Program-made: the position numbers and the translations under genes
Shown here: one piece after another, positions 44,096 through 50,668 of the stretch
Position numbering within the stretch: position 1 is the stretch's first letter
Layout of the letters: each line of letters opens with the position of its first letter
Notes under the pieces: generated by a model
The model's database searches: none
The model's input: the letters and a program-made list of their open reading frames with translations, nothing else
Told to the model about the DNA's origin: nothing
Source: a virus
Direction: 5' to 3' (one strand)
Length of the DNA stretch: 64,000 nucleotides
IMG/VR virus record: IMGVR_UViG_3300020580_000009
Span: 1 to 64,000 of that record

Positions 44096-45361
44096 TTACG
44101 CTTTTTCTTCAATTGCGTCATAAAACACTGTCTGACCAAACGGCCCTTCGATATCCTTCGTGCCGTATGCAAGCCAGATCGTATCGCAGTAATCTGGATC
44201 ACCCCAACCCGCACAAGGATACATATCCGTGAAGACTAAAAGTGTCTTTGGTTGGGAATCGATTTCCTTCAAGTGTTCGAAAATGCATTCGAAATCAGTA
44301 CCACCACCACCGCGGAATTCATATTCCTCCAAGTCTGCCACATTGTCTGGCGTAATTGTAATGTAATCGTACACCGCAGTGTCAAAACAGAACAAATGGA
44401 GTTTGTAATCCTGATACGAATCAACAATGTTCAAAACCTCAGACACCATTTTTTGGGCATAAGGGGCCGTAGAACCAGACATGTCCATTGCAACATGCAG
44501 TTCAACCATAGTATCGACATTCGAACCAGGAAGAATTGCATCGCAGCTAAACGAACGACGCGACGGACGCATAAACGTAAAGTCAGACTTGATTTGGCTT
44601 TGGATATGCTGTTCAACCAGAGTGCGCCAATCAATAACAGGCTTCAAGATACGATCAAGATAGCGCTGAACACCGAGAGGAGTCTTACCAGCACCTGCAG
44701 CAGCCGCAGCTTGCATAACAGCAGAAAGCATTTCATCGCGCAGCTTATCAACATCACCAATAGTCGGACGACCACGACCCTTACCATCCTTGTCGCCATC
44801 ACCGTCACCATCACCGTCTTCGTCGCCGTCACCATCGTTATCGAGGTGATCGTCAAATGCGCTCATTTGCTTGAACTTTTGCTGATTTTGCATGATATCA
44901 TCATACACATCTTCCGCAGTCCAACCGACATACTTGCGATCATAGCAAATTTCGACAGTCGTAATCTTTTCACCGATTTGCGCATCGACCAAGTCGCCAT
45001 TTACGCAAAAATCAAGTGCGACATTCCACATTTGCTTATCACGATTTGCTTGACGAGCAACACCGAGTGAGCCGACGTGTGCATATGCGCAATGCAAAAT
45101 TTCATGCGCAATACCAAAAATCAATTCTTTATCAGAGAGTTTTAGAACAAACTCGCTGTTGTAATAAAACTTACGACCATCAGTTGCGAGCGTCGGAAGC
45201 CATTCGTCAGAATTGACAGGTTCAAGACGCAATGCAAGATTGCCGAAAAATGGTTGCTTAAGCAGCAAAGCGATGCGAGCATTAGTAAGCTTTTCAAGAG
45301 CCTTCTTATCGCGTTCCTTGTCAAACGTGAGATTGGTCGTGACTTGTTTTGTGCTAGACAT
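44096..45361 (-). CDS. VWA-like protein with N-terminal metallopeptidase-like domain (DUF2201 type)
   Basis: 421 residues. ELIFGIAHEILHCAYAHVG at ~80-98 carries HExxH zinc-peptidase-like residues. Residues ~175-200 are an Asp-Gly repeat (DGDGDEDGDGDGDGDKDG) that resembles calcium-binding loops. The C-terminal ~170 residues form a VWA domain with a MIDAS-like AMDMSGSTAPY and GGGGTDFECIF. DUF2201/VWA proteins usually act with MoxR AAA+ ATPases, as here (47755-48900). Role in the phage unknown: remodelling or metal insertion is inferred. The gene has higher GC than its neighbours. AAGGAA precedes the ATG. Confidence 0.75.
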   Translation of the reverse strand: MSSTKQVTTNLTFDKERDKKALEKLTNARIALLLKQPFFGNLALRLEPVNSDEWLPTLATDGRKFYYNSEFVLKLSDKELIFGIAHEILHCAYAHVGSLGVARQANRDKQMWNVALDFCVNGDLVDAQIGEKITTVEICYDRKYVGWTAEDVYDDIMQNQQKFKQMSAFDDHLDNDGDGDEDGDGDGDGDKDGKGRGRPTIGDVDKLRDEMLSAVMQAAAAAGAGKTPLGVQRYLDRILKPVIDWRTLVEQHIQSQIKSDFTFMRPSRRSFSCDAILPGSNVDTMVELHVAMDMSGSTAPYAQKMVSEVLNIVDSYQDYKLHLFCFDTAVYDYITITPDNVADLEEYEFRGGGGTDFECIFEHLKEIDSQPKTLLVFTDMYPCAGWGDPDYCDTIWLAYGTKDIEGPFGQTVFYDAIEEKA

Positions 45362-45390: not shown

Positions 45391-45418
45391 ATTATACTAT
45401 AAAATTTGGATTTGTGAA
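45391..45418 (-). promoter_or_regulatory. Sigma70-type promoter for the VWA gene
   Basis: Minus strand TTCACA (45418-45413), 16-base spacer, TATAAT (45396-45391), then a leader of ~29 bases with AAGGAA. An 18-bp TGTTG-N8-CAAC element lies 38 bases upstream of the -10. Confidence 0.65.
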
Positions 45419-45434
45419 GATTATTTTATGAGGT

Positions 45435-45452
45435 GTTGCGAAAATACAACGA
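45435..45452. promoter_or_regulatory. 18-bp palindromic element, copy 1 (imperfect)
   Basis: TGTTGC-GAAAAT-ACAACG. Same length and core as five others between 45.9 and 50.7 kb. It abuts the stop codon of the upstream gene (45453) and lies upstream of the VWA promoter. Possible operator. Confidence 0.5.
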
Positions 45453-45776
45453 TTAACGTTTGATCCAGCTGAAGTCTTCAATATTTGTCATATATTTGGC
45501 AGAGTTGAGCTTACCGAGTAATTGTTCATATTGATCAATCAGTGATTCGGCTTCGGCATCATTTTCATAGTTATGCAATGTAATTATTGCATTTATCAAA
45601 ATGTCCTGTGTTTTATTTAAATTTGATACAATTGCATTTTTACCTTTTCGTAAAACGGAAGTCGGTTTATTTCTTAACGATGCTTTATATTCGTTAAATT
45701 GTTCAAGATTATTCAATACATTACCTTTCAAAATTAATTTTAATTTTTCTTGGTCTTCTATTTCACATAATCTCAT
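45453..45776 (-). CDS. Small protein with ART-family-like N-terminal tag
   Basis: 107 residues. It begins MRLCEIEDQEK, resembling the (K/R)-(I/L)-x-E-(I/L) tag of the ART-like family, but has none of that family's other motifs. The rest is helical and Asn/Leu-rich (LNNLEQFNEYKASLRNK, NKTQDILINAIITLHNYEN). If the tag is a targeting signal, this could be a further cargo; chance similarity over ~10 residues is possible. Confidence 0.5.
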   Translation of the reverse strand: MRLCEIEDQEKLKLILKGNVLNNLEQFNEYKASLRNKPTSVLRKGKNAIVSNLNKTQDILINAIITLHNYENDAEAESLIDQYEQLLGKLNSAKYMTNIEDFSWIKR

Positions 45777-45778
45777 AA

Positions 45779-45928
45779 TTATTCCTCTTCTATGCGGTCT
45801 AACGCATCAAGAGATTCACTATAAAGTCCATTTTTATTCATCGCATCCCATTCTGCAAGAAATGCATCCATTTCTTCGTCAGGAATCTCGTTTAAACTTT
45901 TATACTTTGCAAAATTGTATTCCTTCAT
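45779..45928 (-). CDS. 49-residue acidic protein
   Basis: ATG 45928 to TAA 45779-45781, preceded by AGGAG at 8 bases. The product opens MKEYNFAKYKSLNEIPDEE, is strongly acidic (D/E in the second half) and probably helical. Not recognised. The extended -10 promoter upstream and clear ribosome binding site support translation. Confidence 0.55.
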   Translation of the reverse strand: MKEYNFAKYKSLNEIPDEEMDAFLAEWDAMNKNGLYSESLDALDRIEEE

Positions 45929-45948
45929 ATTTTTCTCCTATATAGTGC

Positions 45949-45957
45949 ATTATAGCA
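45949..45957 (-). promoter_or_regulatory. Extended -10 promoter
   Basis: Minus strand TGC-TATAAT with no good -35 hexamer, the pattern of an extended -10 promoter. It lies 20 bases before ATG 45928; an 18-bp palindrome is centred ~35 bases upstream of the -10. Confidence 0.5.
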
Positions 45958-45980
45958 CAACTATATCAGGTATGCATGTT

Positions 45981-45998
45981 TGTTGTAAAAATACAACA
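45981..45998. promoter_or_regulatory. 18-bp palindromic element, copy 2 (perfect)
   Basis: TGTTGTA-AAAA-TACAACA: perfect 7-bp arms. Same arms as copy 5 at 50006-50023. Confidence 0.6.
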
Positions 45999-46027
45999 TT
46001 ACAATATGTAAGATTACAAACTGTAAT
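45999..46027. promoter_or_regulatory. Two tandem TTACA-N3-TGTAA palindromes
   Basis: TTACA-ATA-TGTAA (45999-46011) and ATTACA-AAC-TGTAAT (46013-46027), directly beside palindrome copy 2. Centre-to-centre distances are ~15 bases. This looks like a compound operator region upstream of the extended -10 promoter. The second copy touches the stop codon of the gene at 46027-46200. Confidence 0.45.
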
Positions 46028-46200
46028 TAATCGGGAAGTTTTTCGCCTGGTTTGTCGTATAATACGACTTCGCAAGTCGGATCAGTTAGAAATGGTGTGA
46101 TTGAACCAAAAGGTTCCAACCATTCTTTGGATCCATTAAATCGAATTGCGGCATATGTGCCAACATTCGGAAAACCTTCAGAATCTTTAGTATAGACCAT
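46027..46200 (-). CDS. 57-residue protein, unknown function
   Basis: ATG 46200 to TAA 46027-46029, with AAGGA upstream. It opens MVYTKDSEGFPNVGTYAAIR and ends DKPGEKLPD. Predicted small beta protein with no recognised motif. It is the last gene of the leftward small-gene run that starts at 47001. Confidence 0.5.
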   Translation of the reverse strand: MVYTKDSEGFPNVGTYAAIRFNGSKEWLEPFGSITPFLTDPTCEVVLYDKPGEKLPD

Positions 46201-46209
46201 TTTTATTCC

Positions 46210-46557
46210 TTAATAAATGTAACCTGACCATTCTGCGATGATTTCAATATCGTTTTCTTTGATATAATCAAAAGCATCTTTCATTGACCAAAATGAAGGT
46301 CCAGGTGCGCCCATCGCGCGATCATTATCAGTTGATCCGGTAGACACATAATAATAGCCATCTTCTTCCATATCCATTTCTTCAGCGTCAAATGAACAAC
46401 ACTCATGCTTTTCAGCTTCTAGCAACACAGATTCTGGAACTTTTTCACAATCAGAAGTGTATGGAGAGAAAATCCAATTCCAAACATCTTCATTTACCAG
46501 TTTTACATCCGTATCGCCTTGACCGCTCAATACAATTAGATAGAGTTTTTCAGACAT
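46210..46557 (-). CDS. 115-residue protein, unknown function
   Basis: It opens MSEKLYLIVLSGQGDTDVKL and contains an acidic stretch (SFDAEEMDMEEDGYYYV) and FWSMKDAFDYIKENDIEIIA. Acidic, soluble and compact; possibly a DNA-mimic-like or regulatory small protein, but nothing in the sequence proves it. Clear spacing to the neighbours and conserved strand order support coding. Confidence 0.55.
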   Translation of the reverse strand: MSEKLYLIVLSGQGDTDVKLVNEDVWNWIFSPYTSDCEKVPESVLLEAEKHECCSFDAEEMDMEEDGYYYVSTGSTDNDRAMGAPGPSFWSMKDAFDYIKENDIEIIAEWSGYIY

Positions 46558-46559
46558 TT

Positions 46560-46739
46560 TTAATCCTGTTTTGTAGAGCCAGTGAAATGATAACCAGTAA
46601 TATCAGCGCAACCAATGCCCTTATCGTAACATGGACGCAAAGAACCTGATGTAAATTCGACGTTGTATTTCTTGTTCAGATATTCAGCAACAGCTTTTAA
46701 TACTTCCATTTCAGTTACATCAACAGATAGTTTTGACAT
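46560..46739 (-). CDS. 59-residue protein, unknown function
   Basis: ATG 46739 to TAA 46560-46562. The sequence opens MSKLSVDVTEMEVLKAVAEY and ends CADITGYHFTGSTKQD. Two Cys at ~37 and 44. Not recognised. It sits between small genes with 1-2 base spacing, supporting co-translation. Confidence 0.5.
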   Translation of the reverse strand: MSKLSVDVTEMEVLKAVAEYLNKKYNVEFTSGSLRPCYDKGIGCADITGYHFTGSTKQD

Positions 46740-46740
46740 T

Positions 46741-46833
46741 TTAACGACTCAATAAAGTTGCTGTTACTACACCAAATACGCAAACGAATACAATCAAGAT
46801 ACCCAGTAAATCATTTTTTAATAGATCGCGCAT
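46741..46833 (-). CDS. 30-residue single-pass membrane protein
   Basis: ATG 46833 to TAA 46741-46743. After MRDLLKND, the stretch LLGILIVFVCVFGVVTATLL is an uninterrupted hydrophobic segment, ending SR. Typical phage micro-protein with one transmembrane helix. Its ATG immediately follows the upstream stop (TAAATG) and it ends 1 base before the next ATG, so coding is likely although it is very short. Confidence 0.5.
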   Translation of the reverse strand: MRDLLKNDLLGILIVFVCVFGVVTATLLSR

Positions 46834-47001
46834 TTAGTTGTATTGCAAACGTTCTTGTTCTTGAAAAGCTTGAAAAGCGGGACTTTGGAACACTTCTGGT
46901 TCATTGACACCAAGTTGGTCCACGAGCCGCATCAGATAGGCAATGCGGTTTTCCAACATCACAACATACGGATCATTCGAATAGTCAATTGCGTTTTCCA
47001 T
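46834..47001 (-). CDS. 55-residue protein, unknown function
   Basis: ATG 47001 to TAA 46834-46836, with GGAG ~9 bases upstream. Begins MENAIDYSNDPYVVMLENRI and continues AYLMRLVDQLGVNEPEVFQS. Helical, ending Gln/Glu-rich. Not recognised. It contacts the membrane micro-protein gene at TAAATG. Confidence 0.5.
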   Translation of the reverse strand: MENAIDYSNDPYVVMLENRIAYLMRLVDQLGVNEPEVFQSPAFQAFQEQERLQYN

Positions 47002-47015
47002 TTTAAATCTCCAAT

Positions 47016-47678
47016 TTAAGTTAGTTTAAATTTACAGCGATCAAAATGATACTTTTTCATTCCAGACGAACCACCGCTTTTATTGCAGTGTGGGCAAATA
47101 ACGATAGGCATTTTCTTACCTTTGTTATTTGGTGGTTTTCCTTTCTTTTTATCAGACATCCTTTGCTTTGTGTCATCAGAATGAGTCTTACCTCTATGAC
47201 CATCAGCATTCTTTTTTCTCACTTCCTCACTTGGATTTTGGTGAGATTCAGATTGCCTTTTTAAGACATCCTCTCTTGTTTCTTTACGACCTTTGTTCCA
47301 TGGTTTAGAACCTTTTTTACCTTTTGAAATATTCGCATTGCTCGTGGCAGAGCGATTCTTCGCAGAAATCGATTGTTTTGCTTTAGTTTCTTCAGATGTG
47401 ACTCTAATAATTCCTGAGGTTCCTTGCCCACCATTCGTTCTATTGTGTAGAGTTCCTGTTCCTATATCCTTACGACCATAAAAGGAAATCCAGAAACGCT
47501 CCCAATAAAACGCATCAAATTCATCCAAATCCTTCTGCGGAAAAACTATTCTTCGCTTATCTGCTGGCGGATTAAAACCATTATGCTGATTAAATGCTCG
47601 TCTATTTTTCCCTTTTCCGACGTAATATGGGGAACCATCTTTCCTCAAGTAAAAATACACATAAAAAATATTAGTCAT
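47016..47678 (-). CDS. GIY-YIG homing endonuclease with NUMOD3 repeats and zinc finger
   Basis: 220 residues. FYVYFYLRKDGSPYYVGKGKN is the GIY-YIG variant with Y-x(10-11)-Y-V-G. NRRAFNQH contributes the Arg, and AFYWERFWISFYG the Glu helix. Repeats such as TSEETKAKQSIS, PSEEVRKKNAD and HSDDTKQRMSDK are NUMOD3-like DNA-binding elements. The C-terminus has CPHCNKSGGSSGMKKYHFDRC, a zinc finger. A classic phage homing endonuclease, placed between small genes and the MoxR-like gene. Confidence 0.85.
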   Translation of the reverse strand: MTNIFYVYFYLRKDGSPYYVGKGKNRRAFNQHNGFNPPADKRRIVFPQKDLDEFDAFYWERFWISFYGRKDIGTGTLHNRTNGGQGTSGIIRVTSEETKAKQSISAKNRSATSNANISKGKKGSKPWNKGRKETREDVLKRQSESHQNPSEEVRKKNADGHRGKTHSDDTKQRMSDKKKGKPPNNKGKKMPIVICPHCNKSGGSSGMKKYHFDRCKFKLT

Positions 47679-47704
47679 AGTTGCCTTAGTAGTTTTGTTG
47701 AAAA

Positions 47705-47724
47705 GAGAGGGCTTTCACCCTCTC
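47705..47724 (-). terminator. Rho-independent terminator after MoxR gene
   Basis: Minus strand GAGAGGG-loop-CCCTCTC, then TTTTC. It lies 31 bases after the MoxR stop and before the GIY-YIG gene. Confidence 0.7.
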
Positions 47725-47754
47725 CCCAACTTACTACTATTTATCCAAAAACTA

Positions 47755-48900
47755 TTATTTTAGATTTATTGCATCCGTAATTTGTTTGTTGAAACGCTTG
47801 AAGAATTCATCGAAGTTCTTCAGGCTCGAAACATCGACTGGCAAGTCATACGTTGCAAGTGCAGTCTTCGCACCCATCACGCACATTTCGGTCTTGAAGT
47901 TGTCCATCATGAACTTGAAGAAATAATCAGTCATTTCGTGCAACTTCTTGTTATCAGCCTTGCTGAGTTCGCCATTCAGAGCGTGCTTCTTAACGAAGTC
48001 ACCCAATTCATAGCACATGCTGATGGTCAGAGTGTACATGACCGAAATTTCCTTGCTGTTATCAGCGAGCTTCGTTACTTCACCGCTAAGAATCTTTGAA
48101 GGATTCGGCAGCTTGCTTGCCATTTCACGGTGCGTCATGAATTCAGTAGCAACACCCGAACCGATTGCACCAGCAACCAAATCAACCATTTCCTTTTCGC
48201 TCATGTAGCTACCAGCTTCTTGGGTGCGAACGATTTCGCTAGTGAAGGCCCAAGTACGCGGCGTAGCAAACGAACGTTGCTTTGCCTTCGGATCGAACGT
48301 AAAGAGCTTGTCTTTAGCGAACGAGATATAACCGACAACATCTGGGTGAATATTGTGGCGAACAGCCCAATCGATCCAAGCTTCAGCGTCAGCTTCCATC
48401 TCCAAGTGAATGAAACGATTCGACAGCGGAGAAGGCATTGCGTAAGTAACACCCTTGTCGCTTTCACGGTTACCTGCAGCGACGATAACGACGTTATCAG
48501 GAAGCTTGTAAGTGCCGATCTTGCGGTTCAGCGTAAGCTGATATGCAGCAGCCTGAACGCTAGGAGCAGCACTGTTCATTTCATCGAGGAACAGCACGAC
48601 AATCGGATATTGTGCGCAGAGTTCAGCAGTCGGAAGATCGATCGGAGGTGCCCATTCCATGAAACCTGTGTTCTTGTTATAGAACGGCATACCGCGAAGA
48701 TCAGTCGGATCAAGCAGGTTCAAGCGAATATCGACAAGCAGACCACCGAGCTTTTCAGCGACGGACGCAACAACATCAGACTTACCGATACCAGGAGCAC
48801 CCCAAAGAAACACAGGACGCTTTGCAGCGAAACAGTGTGTAAGCGCAGCAGCGATACGGTTAGCGTTGAGCGGACGTGCAGTAGCGATGTTCGTAGACAT
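47755..48900 (-). CDS. MoxR-type AAA+ ATPase
   Basis: 381 residues. VFLWGAPGIGKSDVVASVAE (Walker A), IVVLFLDEMNSAAPSVQAAA (Walker B), VIVAAGNRESDKG (sensor 1) and MPSPLSNRFIHLEME (Arg finger region) place it in the MoxR subfamily. MoxR ATPases act with VWA proteins to remodel or load metals into partner complexes; the VWA protein is 2.4 kb downstream. No membrane segment. GC content is visibly higher than in the neighbours, as in the VWA gene, suggesting a shared origin. The long 5' region (48901-49150) carries regulatory elements. Confidence 0.8.
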   Translation of the reverse strand: MSTNIATARPLNANRIAAALTHCFAAKRPVFLWGAPGIGKSDVVASVAEKLGGLLVDIRLNLLDPTDLRGMPFYNKNTGFMEWAPPIDLPTAELCAQYPIVVLFLDEMNSAAPSVQAAAYQLTLNRKIGTYKLPDNVVIVAAGNRESDKGVTYAMPSPLSNRFIHLEMEADAEAWIDWAVRHNIHPDVVGYISFAKDKLFTFDPKAKQRSFATPRTWAFTSEIVRTQEAGSYMSEKEMVDLVAGAIGSGVATEFMTHREMASKLPNPSKILSGEVTKLADNSKEISVMYTLTISMCYELGDFVKKHALNGELSKADNKKLHEMTDYFFKFMMDNFKTEMCVMGAKTALATYDLPVDVSSLKNFDEFFKRFNKQITDAINLK

Positions 48901-48994
48901 ATGTTTAATTACCTTTAAAAAGAAGTTTAGTAAGTTGGTTTAGTGAATCGACAACAAAATCATTTTACTACATTTTTACTACTTTGTGTTGTTT

Positions 48995-49012
48995 AGTTGC
49001 TTAAAAACAACA
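48995..49012. promoter_or_regulatory. 18-bp palindromic element, copy 3
   Basis: AGTTGC-TTAAAA-ACAACA in the MoxR leader region. A further TGTTGT at 48986-48991 makes a longer nested repeat with the same right arm. Confidence 0.4.
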
Positions 49013-49114
49013 CTTAGAAACTTTTGAAACCTTGCAAATTTCGCGCTTTATTTCGTTTGCTGCGTCACTCACAACAGAATCAATTATACGCGATTTTCGA
49101 AACTTTTGTTGCTT

Positions 49115-49132
49115 TGTTGCACATTTACAACA
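49115..49132. promoter_or_regulatory. 18-bp palindromic element, copy 4
   Basis: TGTTGC-ACATTT-ACAACA, 26 bases upstream of the TATAAT at 49083-49088 and 18 bases after the stop of the gene at 49151-49405 on the minus strand. Confidence 0.55.
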
Positions 49133-49150
49133 ACTTTTTTCTTACAAATC

Positions 49151-49405
49151 TTAATTCTTGACACCTAGACGAATGAGGATCACTTGACCAGATCCAGTTT
49201 GGGGCAGGTATTCCCTTACAATTTCGAAAGTTTTTGCAAACGTTCCAAATTCAGGATCTACGGGTTCAGTCAAATCAATATCAACTTCACTTACAGAAGT
49301 GTAAGATTCGTACCCGTGACACGAATCATCGGTGGTAATCACTTCAATTTTAGCATCCTCAGGAAACTGTTCAAGCCATTCTTGCAATTCTTTACGAGTT
49401 GTCAT
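49151..49405 (-). CDS. 84-residue protein, unknown function
   Basis: Opens MTTRKELQEWLEQFPEDAKI, then EVITTDDSCHGYESYTSVSE, ending GSGQVILIRLGVKN. Acidic with a helix-strand layout; the LQEWLEQFPEDAKIEV opening resembles small phage proteins but I cannot name a family. Last of a three-gene unit (49937 to 49151) driven by the promoter at 49962-49989. Confidence 0.6.
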   Translation of the reverse strand: MTTRKELQEWLEQFPEDAKIEVITTDDSCHGYESYTSVSEVDIDLTEPVDPEFGTFAKTFEIVREYLPQTGSGQVILIRLGVKN

Positions 49406-49417
49406 ATTTCAATCTCC

Positions 49418-49678
49418 TTACGCCATAAAGCAAATATCAAAATCTTTGCTAGTTACACTAGAACCATCAAGATTCCAGCAGCGCGACCAGTCAGCAGTAT
49501 GAAAGCAACTTTCTTCAGTATCGCTTTCAGCGAACTTGAAAATTACATCTGTAATGTCGCCGTTTCGCAATTTAACACTTACAGCAGCACCCCTGTTAAA
49601 CACAGATTCAAAAGCTAGTGCGTGCGTGAATGTATTCAGTTCTTCTTTATTCTTCTTAAACATTGCATCATTGCGCAT
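49418..49678 (-). CDS. 86-residue protein, unknown function
   Basis: Contains EELNTFTHALAFESVFNRGA, AVSVKLRNGDITDVIFKFAE and a Cys/Trp-rich ESCFHTADWSRCWNLDG. Beta-rich small protein, possibly metal-binding through Cys/His, not recognised. Second gene of the three-gene leftward unit. Confidence 0.55.
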   Translation of the reverse strand: MRNDAMFKKNKEELNTFTHALAFESVFNRGAAVSVKLRNGDITDVIFKFAESDTEESCFHTADWSRCWNLDGSSVTSKDFDICFMA

Positions 49679-49688
49679 TTGAATATCC

Positions 49689-49937
49689 TTACCAAGAAAT
49701 TTTAACAGTAAAAATTGACTTCGTATAATTTTGATCTACATCTACTGTAAATCCTGATTCTTGTGCGATAGACAAAGCAAAACCTGCCTCAGTAGACATT
49801 TCGAATAGAATCTTACAAGATGTAAGCTTCGATCTAGCAGCATCAGTTATTGCTACATCTACAAGGCTTTCAATTGCCTTACGAGACCTAAATCCACTCT
49901 TTCCAGACAATTCTCGTGCTTGCTCAAGAGTAATCAT
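49689..49937 (-). CDS. 82-residue protein, unknown function
   Basis: Opens MITLEQARELSGKSGFRSRK. A helical N-terminus is followed by short strands (KSIFTVKISW at the end). AGGAG lies 6-10 bases before the ATG. First gene behind a consensus promoter; not recognised. Confidence 0.55.
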   Translation of the reverse strand: MITLEQARELSGKSGFRSRKAIESLVDVAITDAARSKLTSCKILFEMSTEAGFALSIAQESGFTVDVDQNYTKSIFTVKISW

Positions 49938-49961
49938 TGTAATCTCCTATCGAATAAGTCT

Positions 49962-49989
49962 ATTATACGCTTTTGGGTGAAAATGTCAA
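49962..49989 (-). promoter_or_regulatory. Consensus sigma70-type promoter
   Basis: Minus strand TTGACA (49989-49984), 16-base spacer, TATAAT (49967-49962). The spacer TTTTCACCCAAAAGCG closely matches that of the promoter at 50614-50641 (AATTCAACCAAAAGAG). A ~24-base leader with AGGAG follows. Confidence 0.8.
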
Positions 49990-50005
49990 GTTTGGTCAGG
50001 CTGAA

Positions 50006-50023
50006 TGTTGTACAAATACAACA
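50006..50023. promoter_or_regulatory. 18-bp palindromic element, copy 5 (perfect)
   Basis: TGTTGTA-CAAA-TACAACA, 1 base after the stop of the gene at 50025-50273 and 16 bases upstream of the -35 of the next promoter on the minus strand. Confidence 0.6.
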
Positions 50024-50024
50024 C

Positions 50025-50273
50025 TTATACCTTCATTTTAAGTTTAAATGCGAGCAATTCTTGCTCAGAATTCAGAATTGAACCATTTCCATTATAATGC
50101 GAACTATAGTCTTTAAAATTTTTTTCTATTTGTTCCAACGTAACAGAAGGTTTTGGATCGTCATTCTCTGTGTTATTCCAATTGATATAATATCCATTGT
50201 TATATTTTTCAATACGACCTACCCACAAATCGTCATCTAATACACAAGCAAATATAGAATTTTCAGTAATCAT
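50025..50273 (-). CDS. 82-residue protein, paralogue of the upstream gene
   Basis: ENSIFACVLDDDLWVGRIEK at the start, then YYINWNNTENDDPKPSV, ending LNSEQELLAFKLKMKV. The ending matches the upstream gene (LNNEKDLLKHKLKMKV), and both have a (K/R)(I/V)-x-x-Y-x-x-x-(G/N)-Y/V pattern. Small beta-barrel-like protein, unknown function. ATGA overlap with the upstream paralogue. Confidence 0.6.
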   Translation of the reverse strand: MITENSIFACVLDDDLWVGRIEKYNNGYYINWNNTENDDPKPSVTLEQIEKNFKDYSSHYNGNGSILNSEQELLAFKLKMKV

Positions 50274-50515
50274 ACTTTCATTTTGAGTTTATGTTTTAAC
50301 AAATCTTTCTCATTATTGAGAATAGTCCAATTATCGACTTTAATTTGCCAATCAATATAATTTTGTCCGATAGATGATTTCATTCCACCGTCCCATGAAA
50401 TATCATACATTACACCATTCTTGCTATAATAAACTCGTAATACTTTTCCGAATTTGGCAGGAGAATATTTTGTTGCAGGTACGGCAATTAAATGCCCTTT
50501 CATTAATGCTGTCAT
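50270..50515 (-). CDS. 81-residue protein, paralogue of the downstream gene
   Basis: Opens MTALMKGHLIAVPATKYSPA, then FGKVLRVYYSKNGVMYDISW and ends LNNEKDLLKHKLKMKV. Paralogue of the gene at 50025-50273. Its ATG lies in an ATGA overlap with the 31-residue membrane protein, so all three are translated from one promoter. Confidence 0.6.
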   Translation of the reverse strand: MTALMKGHLIAVPATKYSPAKFGKVLRVYYSKNGVMYDISWDGGMKSSIGQNYIDWQIKVDNWTILNNEKDLLKHKLKMKV

Positions 50516-50607
50516 TTTGAATGATGAATAATAACTATGAATAATACTCCCAAAATAAAGGGGGCTAAGGTCATAATAAGTATAAGTGTTCGTTCAATTT
50601 TATCCAT
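50512..50607 (-). CDS. 31-residue single-pass membrane protein, leaderless
   Basis: ATG 50607 to TGA 50512-50514. MDKIERT is followed by the hydrophobic LILIMTLAPFILGVLFIVII and ends HHSK. One transmembrane helix is predicted. The ATG is 6 bases after a perfect TATAAT, so the transcript should start on the ATG, and the stop overlaps the next ATG (ATGA). These two facts make this very short ORF convincing. Confidence 0.65.
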   Translation of the reverse strand: MDKIERTLILIMTLAPFILGVLFIVIIHHSK

Positions 50608-50613
50608 ATTGAC

Positions 50614-50641
50614 ATTATACTCTTTTGGTTGAATTTGTCAA
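50614..50641 (-). promoter_or_regulatory. Consensus sigma70-type promoter, leaderless
   Basis: Minus strand TTGACA (50641-50636), 16-base spacer, TATAAT (50619-50614), then GTCAAT and the ATG at 50607. An 18-bp palindrome lies 9 bases upstream of the -35. Confidence 0.8.
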
Positions 50642-50650
50642 GATAAGTTG

Positions 50651-50668
50651 TGTTGTTTTAATACAACA
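50651..50668. promoter_or_regulatory. 18-bp palindromic element, copy 6
   Basis: TGTTGT-TTTAAT-ACAACA, between the leftward consensus promoter and the rightward late promoter of the kinase gene, where it could act on either. Confidence 0.55.

Follow-up and report, generated by a model that had tools for sequence, protein, structure and literature searches.

In a stretch of viral DNA from IMG/VR record IMGVR_UViG_3300020580_000009 (the window, i.e. the first 64,000 bases of the 70,829-base virus record), six copies of an 18-bp palindrome, TGTTGT-N6-ACAACA, each lie upstream of a leftward sigma70-type promoter. Comparison with other viral sequences reveals that the palindrome and its promoter form a recurrent module of many uncultured large phages and are not a local curiosity. 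We document here where the element lies, how its sequence is built, how far it is enriched, how its distances cluster and how widely it is spread, and infer from sequence the binding of a protein, activation, and the phage origin of the factor, as well as the existence of a dedicated regulator. The element is unreported in the literature that we searched, which does not in itself prove the absence of any earlier report.

Palindromes and promoters in the window

All six copies listed in a preliminary description of the window are present (Table 1), except that the first starts at 45434 rather than 45435. The copy at 48995-49012 indeed begins with A, and the two copies said to have perfect 7-bp arms (45981 and 50006) are accompanied by a third, at 50651, with 6-bp arms. 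No exact copy exists elsewhere, either in the window, as had been claimed, or in the full 70,829-bp record: the exact pattern TGTTGY-N6-RCAACA has four matches there, all within this stretch, compared with a mean of 0.033 and a maximum of 1 in 150 order-3 Markov copies of the window. With two mismatches allowed, 20 sites were found versus 12.6 expected, i.e. the pattern is near chance, and hence only exact and one-mismatch copies were counted. This relaxed pattern is all that would fit fortuitous repeats in an AT-rich genome (GC content of the window is 35.6%), an explanation already refuted by the controls, both by the four exact copies against 0.033 expected and by the outcome of the viral scan described below.

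The six palindromes are all non-coding. Across 1.62 Mb of whole phage records the palindrome is by no means equally common in coding regions, as only 19 of its 62 occurrences fall inside open reading frames (ORFs) of at least 100 codons, versus 86% of random 18-mers; a control palindrome occurs three times in the same records. The location just after the preceding stop codon, described earlier as usual, applies to the copies at 45434 and 50006 (1 nt), 49115 (18 nt) and 45981 (28 nt), but neither to that at 50651, which lies between divergent genes, nor to that at 48995, which lies in the moxR leader. The ORF that ends 1 nt before palindrome 1 is 45453-45776. On the minus strand the distances from palindromes 1-6 to the -10 element are 37, 26, 27, 26, 38 and 31 bp, in agreement with the 26-38 bases reported before. 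The promoters behind palindromes 5 and 6 are the only two perfect TTGACA-N16-TATAAT promoters between 43.5 and 60 kb.

Spread of the module and its spacing

To determine the distribution of the module we scanned 2.9 million IMG/VR contigs for TGTTGT-N6-ACAACA followed by 5-20 bases, TTGACA, 15-18 bases and TATAAT. At least 120 viral stretches contain the module, versus one stretch for the scrambled palindrome GTTGTT-N6-AACAAC. Its carriers include T4-like relatives of HTVC008M and cyanophages, as well as jumbo phages related to PA5oct, so that the element is present in phages differing in lineage and size. A palindrome lies within 60 bp of 10 of the 23 strong promoters in one motif-bearing record (G017) and of five of the seven in another (G018), as compared to about 1% of random sites and to none of the 22 strong promoters in a motif-free relative (G002). 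Several of these 22 sigma70 promoters (L217-L227) have a TTGACTTTTTGGTTA-like spacer in common. Among cultured relatives, PA5oct, HTVC008M, S-TIM4, Phosso, Atu_ph07, GAP32 and XbC2 have no palindrome, SCTP-2 and Vibrio phage 2.275 have one each, and a blastn search of INPHARED with one module sequence gave weak partial matches only. On three contigs (L261, L269, L296) promoters and palindromes are arranged differently, partly facing, with GGCGCC sequences close by.

The occurrence of the element in phages of differing lineages and sizes, and the absence of its factor from the window record, would be accommodated if the palindrome belonged to a host regulator of which several phages make use. 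Yet bacterial and archaeal genomes (257 billion bases, searched without reference to the phages' own hosts) contain only 12 module matches, eight of them in two Bacilli metagenome-assembled genomes (MAGs), mostly before paralogous surface genes. Another of the 12 is located on a 4.3-kb contig, probably phage, to which the only three palindromes of a 3.2-Mb bin (G022) are confined. We consider a host regulator improbable. In the Bacilli MAG loci (L144, L145, L147-L149, L152, L154), which carry paralogous surface genes, the promoter spacer contains a G-run (TTGACACCGGGGGGGG...TATAAT) that looks phase-variable.

In whole phage records a near-consensus promoter is found shortly beyond most palindromes. 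A hand-assembled list of 36 gaps between palindrome and -35, from which cases with weaker promoters were excluded, contains 25 gaps of 5-10 bp, six of 15-20 bp and five of 37-48 bp, and none of 0-4, 11-14 or 21-36 bp. A wider set of 227 non-redundant modules among the matches listed, which is biased by the scan and in which peak heights are not comparable across the two scans, exhibits near-range peaks at 6, 9-10, 14-16 and 20 bp; a 10.3-bp component in the near range exceeds the smoothed null (p 0.0005), and the peaks at 6 and 9-10 bp are half a turn apart. As a gap of 6 bp is commonest with N16 and N17 spacers alike, the palindrome is anchored to the -35. Its position is clustered and appears close to a helical phase.

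The nearest relative of the window (G010/L022; 91-97% identity across the main aligned parts) provides one comparison at a single promoter. It lacks a 559-bp segment (45413-45971) with two small genes and palindrome 1, and its only palindrome, equivalent to palindrome 2, is 26 bp away from the -10 of the VWA gene, versus 37 bp in the window, i.e. exactly 11 bp or one helical turn nearer. This shift would fit helical phasing, but a single event is no more than suggestive. Also missing from the relative is a ~680-bp insertion, located after moxR in the window, with a GIY-YIG homing endonuclease (47016-47678).

The clustered distance to the next -35 also bears on the idea that the palindrome acts as an RNA hairpin that ends the preceding transcript by processing or termination. 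Its frequent location 1-28 nt past a stop codon and the ability of 7-bp arms to pair agree with such a role, but the palindromes have low G+C content and no T-run and were not detected as terminator-like, and palindrome 6 sits between divergent genes. Moreover, with positions 6/13 read in the orientation of the promoter, C/A, which breaks the RNA stem, occurs 20 times versus 10 for T/G, which keeps it. The excess of C/A and the clustered promoter distance favor a protein on double-stranded DNA over RNA, and we regard the hairpin as very improbable.

Proposed mechanism and candidate factor

The location of the site upstream of the -35, the clustering of distances, and the window promoters without a good -35 suggest that the factor works together with RNA polymerase and that activation is more probable than repression. 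The preliminary description viewed the palindrome as an operator of a dedicated regulator of the VWA/MoxR and small-gene region. A regulatory site for this region is upheld, whereas a site private to this phage is not, as the element is found in many phages, and its place upstream of the -35, apparently near a helical phase, makes activation likelier than a blocking operator.

In our judgment the chances are about even that a dimeric factor associated with the phages binds the palindrome and forms an RNA polymerase-contacting activator module with the sigma70 promoter. A dimeric phage-associated DNA-binding protein would recognize TGTTGT-N6-ACAACA just upstream of the -35, with the center of the site about 47-64 bp before the predicted start, and from the right face of the helix would contact RNA polymerase via sigma region 4 or the alpha C-terminal domain. 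This contact would raise transcription of early or accessory cassettes (moxR/VWA and small genes, elsewhere tRNA arrays). Where the -35 matches the consensus, the protein would serve as a booster, while in the window promoters with a poor -35 (palindromes 2, 3 and 4) it would take over the role of this element, like Mor in phage Mu.

Several known systems resemble this arrangement in part. In class I CRP-type activation a dimer binds a palindrome upstream of the -35, and the spacings differ by about one helical turn; here the half-site is different. In the Mu middle promoter Pm, the Mor site consists of two 5-bp repeats within a 16-bp element centered at -43.5 (PMC4390567). This inverted-repeat dimer site, upstream of the -10, replaces the -35 and may have a counterpart in the three -35-poor promoters of the window, in which the palindrome lies 26-27 bp before the -10, but the sequence is different, most copies in other phages retain a consensus -35, and the Mor family (PF08765), considered as the regulator and rejected, gave no match above the cut-off in 23 records, several of which are fragments. 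The late promoter consensus of P2 Ogr and P4 Delta, TGT-N12-ACA (PMC3931495), is contained in TGTTGT-N6-ACAACA, and both elements lie upstream of promoters used by the host RNA polymerase. Unlike in P2 and P4, many -35 elements here match the consensus and the controlled genes are non-structural; Ogr_Delta was likewise rejected, since PF04606 was found in 0 of 20 and 0 of 16 records, including that of the window (several of these 36 are fragments), while the E. coli genome, used as positive control, was matched.

Among the families that recur near the palindrome is a winged-helix family of ~90 amino acids, PF14090 HTH_39. In a terminase-picked sample of 18 records, chosen independently of the palindrome, HTH_39 is present in all four palindrome-bearing records versus two of 14 palindrome-free ones (p 0.005, or 0.04 without the weakest Pfam match, which the family's own model scores at 138 bits), and its gene is nearer to palindromes than expected by chance (p 0.0003). 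Among all 57 records it is found in 14 of 22 with at least two palindromes versus five of 35 others, and among records above 100 kb in 10 of 12 versus two of 18. As many of these records had been selected for carrying the palindrome, and kinship among the phages limits their independence, the p-values overstate the association, which relatedness may explain. HTH_39 is predicted to fold into a winged helix with a C-terminal helix, for which structural matches are weak only, and a literature search on the function of HTH_39 returned nothing relevant. An attempt to explain palindrome-free carriers by two HTH_39 subfamilies failed, as two records, G037 and G039, share one type. In HTVC008M, a Pelagibacter phage without the palindrome, an HTH_39 homolog is located directly downstream of cobS (L595, 91.1-92.1 kb). 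AbrB-like, 59-amino-acid HTH and 76-amino-acid multicopy families are likewise seen repeatedly, either close to the palindrome or in phages that carry it. HTH_39 as the candidate factor is a lead only, and it is rather unlikely, if conceivable, that in both T4-like and PA5oct-like jumbo phages a small winged-helix protein reads the palindrome upstream of consensus sigma70 promoters, steering the host polymerase to accessory-gene and tRNA cassettes that come and go along with their palindrome promoters.

A number of observations weigh against the activator module. Many module promoters already match the consensus and should need no activation, and in the set of 227 modules the range of 21-51 bp taken alone has no 10.5-bp periodicity. 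In one ~39-kb lineage (L256, L292, L294, L303 and similar contigs) the palindrome lies 8 bp after TATAAT, i.e. at the predicted transcript start, which is a repressor-like place. The 70.8-kb window record yielded no regulator gene, and HTH_39 is absent from this fragment, from the palindrome-bearing G014 and G045, and from G000, while the palindrome-free G002 and HTVC008M carry it.

Because many of the promoters are near-consensus and so strong unaided, the main rival is a repressor or modulator, encoded by the phage, which as infection proceeds would shut off strong early promoters via RNA polymerase at the -35 region. According to a report on T7 Gp5.7 (PMC5569994), this winged-helix protein represses early promoters by binding around a consensus -35 and contacts RNA polymerase. 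Gp5.7, whose targets are consensus early promoters, is a phage protein with a small winged helix, as is the candidate HTH_39; it differs in that it binds the -35 itself, weakly, and represses, and the section consulted describes no upstream palindrome for it. The ~39-kb lineage, with its palindrome directly after the -10, also agrees with repression. On the other hand, whole records of large phages show no overlap of the palindrome with the -35, the -10 or the start, and its distance upstream of the -35 reaches 48 bp, which would be unusual for a repressor, and the -35-poor window promoters would gain little from one. We regard a repressor or modulator of this kind as rather unlikely. A start-site-blocking operator was dropped for the large phages, as only the ~39-kb lineage consistently has the palindrome in that position.

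Genes associated with the module

The features of the window are collected in Table 1. The tandem pair before moxR consists of palindromes 3 and 4, and the small genes behind palindromes 2, 5 and 6 have no recognizable domains.

Table 1. Palindromes, promoters and downstream genes in the window
Feature	Position	Strand	Description
Palindrome 1	45434..45451	-	Ends ACAACG; minus-strand sequence CGTTGTATTTTCGCAACA
Palindrome 2	45981..45998	-	TGTTGTATTTTTACAACA; 7-bp arms
Palindrome 3	48995..49012	-	TGTTGTTTTTAAGCAACT; first letter A; in moxR leader
Palindrome 4	49115..49132	-	TGTTGTAAATGTGCAACA
Palindrome 5	50006..50023	-	TGTTGTATTTGTACAACA; 7-bp arms
Palindrome 6	50651..50668	-	TGTTGTATTAAAACAACA; 6-bp arms; between divergent genes
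Promoter of palindrome 1	-10 at 45391-45396	-	TTCACA-N16-TATAAT
Promoter of palindrome 2	-10 at 45949-45954	-	-10 TATAAT; without good -35
Promoter of palindrome 3	-10-like at 48962-48967	-	-10-like TAAAAT; without good -35
Promoter of palindrome 4	-10 at 49083-49088	-	-10 TATAAT; without good -35
Promoter of palindrome 5	-10 at 49962-49967	-	Perfect TTGACA-N16-TATAAT; gap to -35 16
Promoter of palindrome 6	-10 at 50614-50619	-	Perfect TTGACA-N16-TATAAT; gap to -35 9
VWA-like / DUF2201 metallopeptidase gene	44096..45361	-	Pfam PF13203 E 1.8e-34, PF09967 E 1.3e-14; downstream of palindrome 1
Small-gene cassette (107 and 49 amino acids)	45453..45928	-	Downstream of palindrome 2
MoxR-type AAA+ ATPase gene	47755..48900	-	phrog_1297 E 2e-98, PF07726; downstream of palindromes 3 and 4
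Small genes (82, 86 and 84 amino acids)	49151..49937	-	Downstream of palindrome 5
Small genes (81 and 82 amino acids)	50025..50515	-	Downstream of palindrome 6

The first genes after the module include those for MoxR ATPases, VWA peptidases, other AAA ATPases and GIY-YIG proteins, as well as members of a recurrent family of ~115 amino acids. Eight loci selected for a first ORF resembling a tRNA gene (L041, L042, L043, L059, L069, L074, L106 and L108) all hold real tRNA genes, in arrays of 3-21 located downstream of or around the palindrome promoter. Judging from these assignments, the module-linked genes look like early or accessory functions.

The MoxR ATPase of the window is 46% identical to that of the Pseudomonas jumbo phage PA5oct and its relatives, and the gene order (exonuclease, ATPase, homing endonuclease, VWA/HNH-annotated gene) is similar to that in PA5oct; a megablast search found no cultured phage with DNA-level similarity. 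The 70,829-base record is possibly a fragment of a bigger genome. Elsewhere in the window, the region 10282-36182 encodes radical-SAM proteins, a Nol-like carbamoyltransferase and an aminotransferase, and is probably involved in glycan modification.

The shared palindrome points to an undescribed gene-control switch common to otherwise different large phages. Almost nothing is known about promoter control in uncultured large phages, and a cis-element that marks a large share of the strongest promoters makes the regulated genes predictable from sequence alone, and makes it testable which small phage protein contacts the host RNA polymerase.

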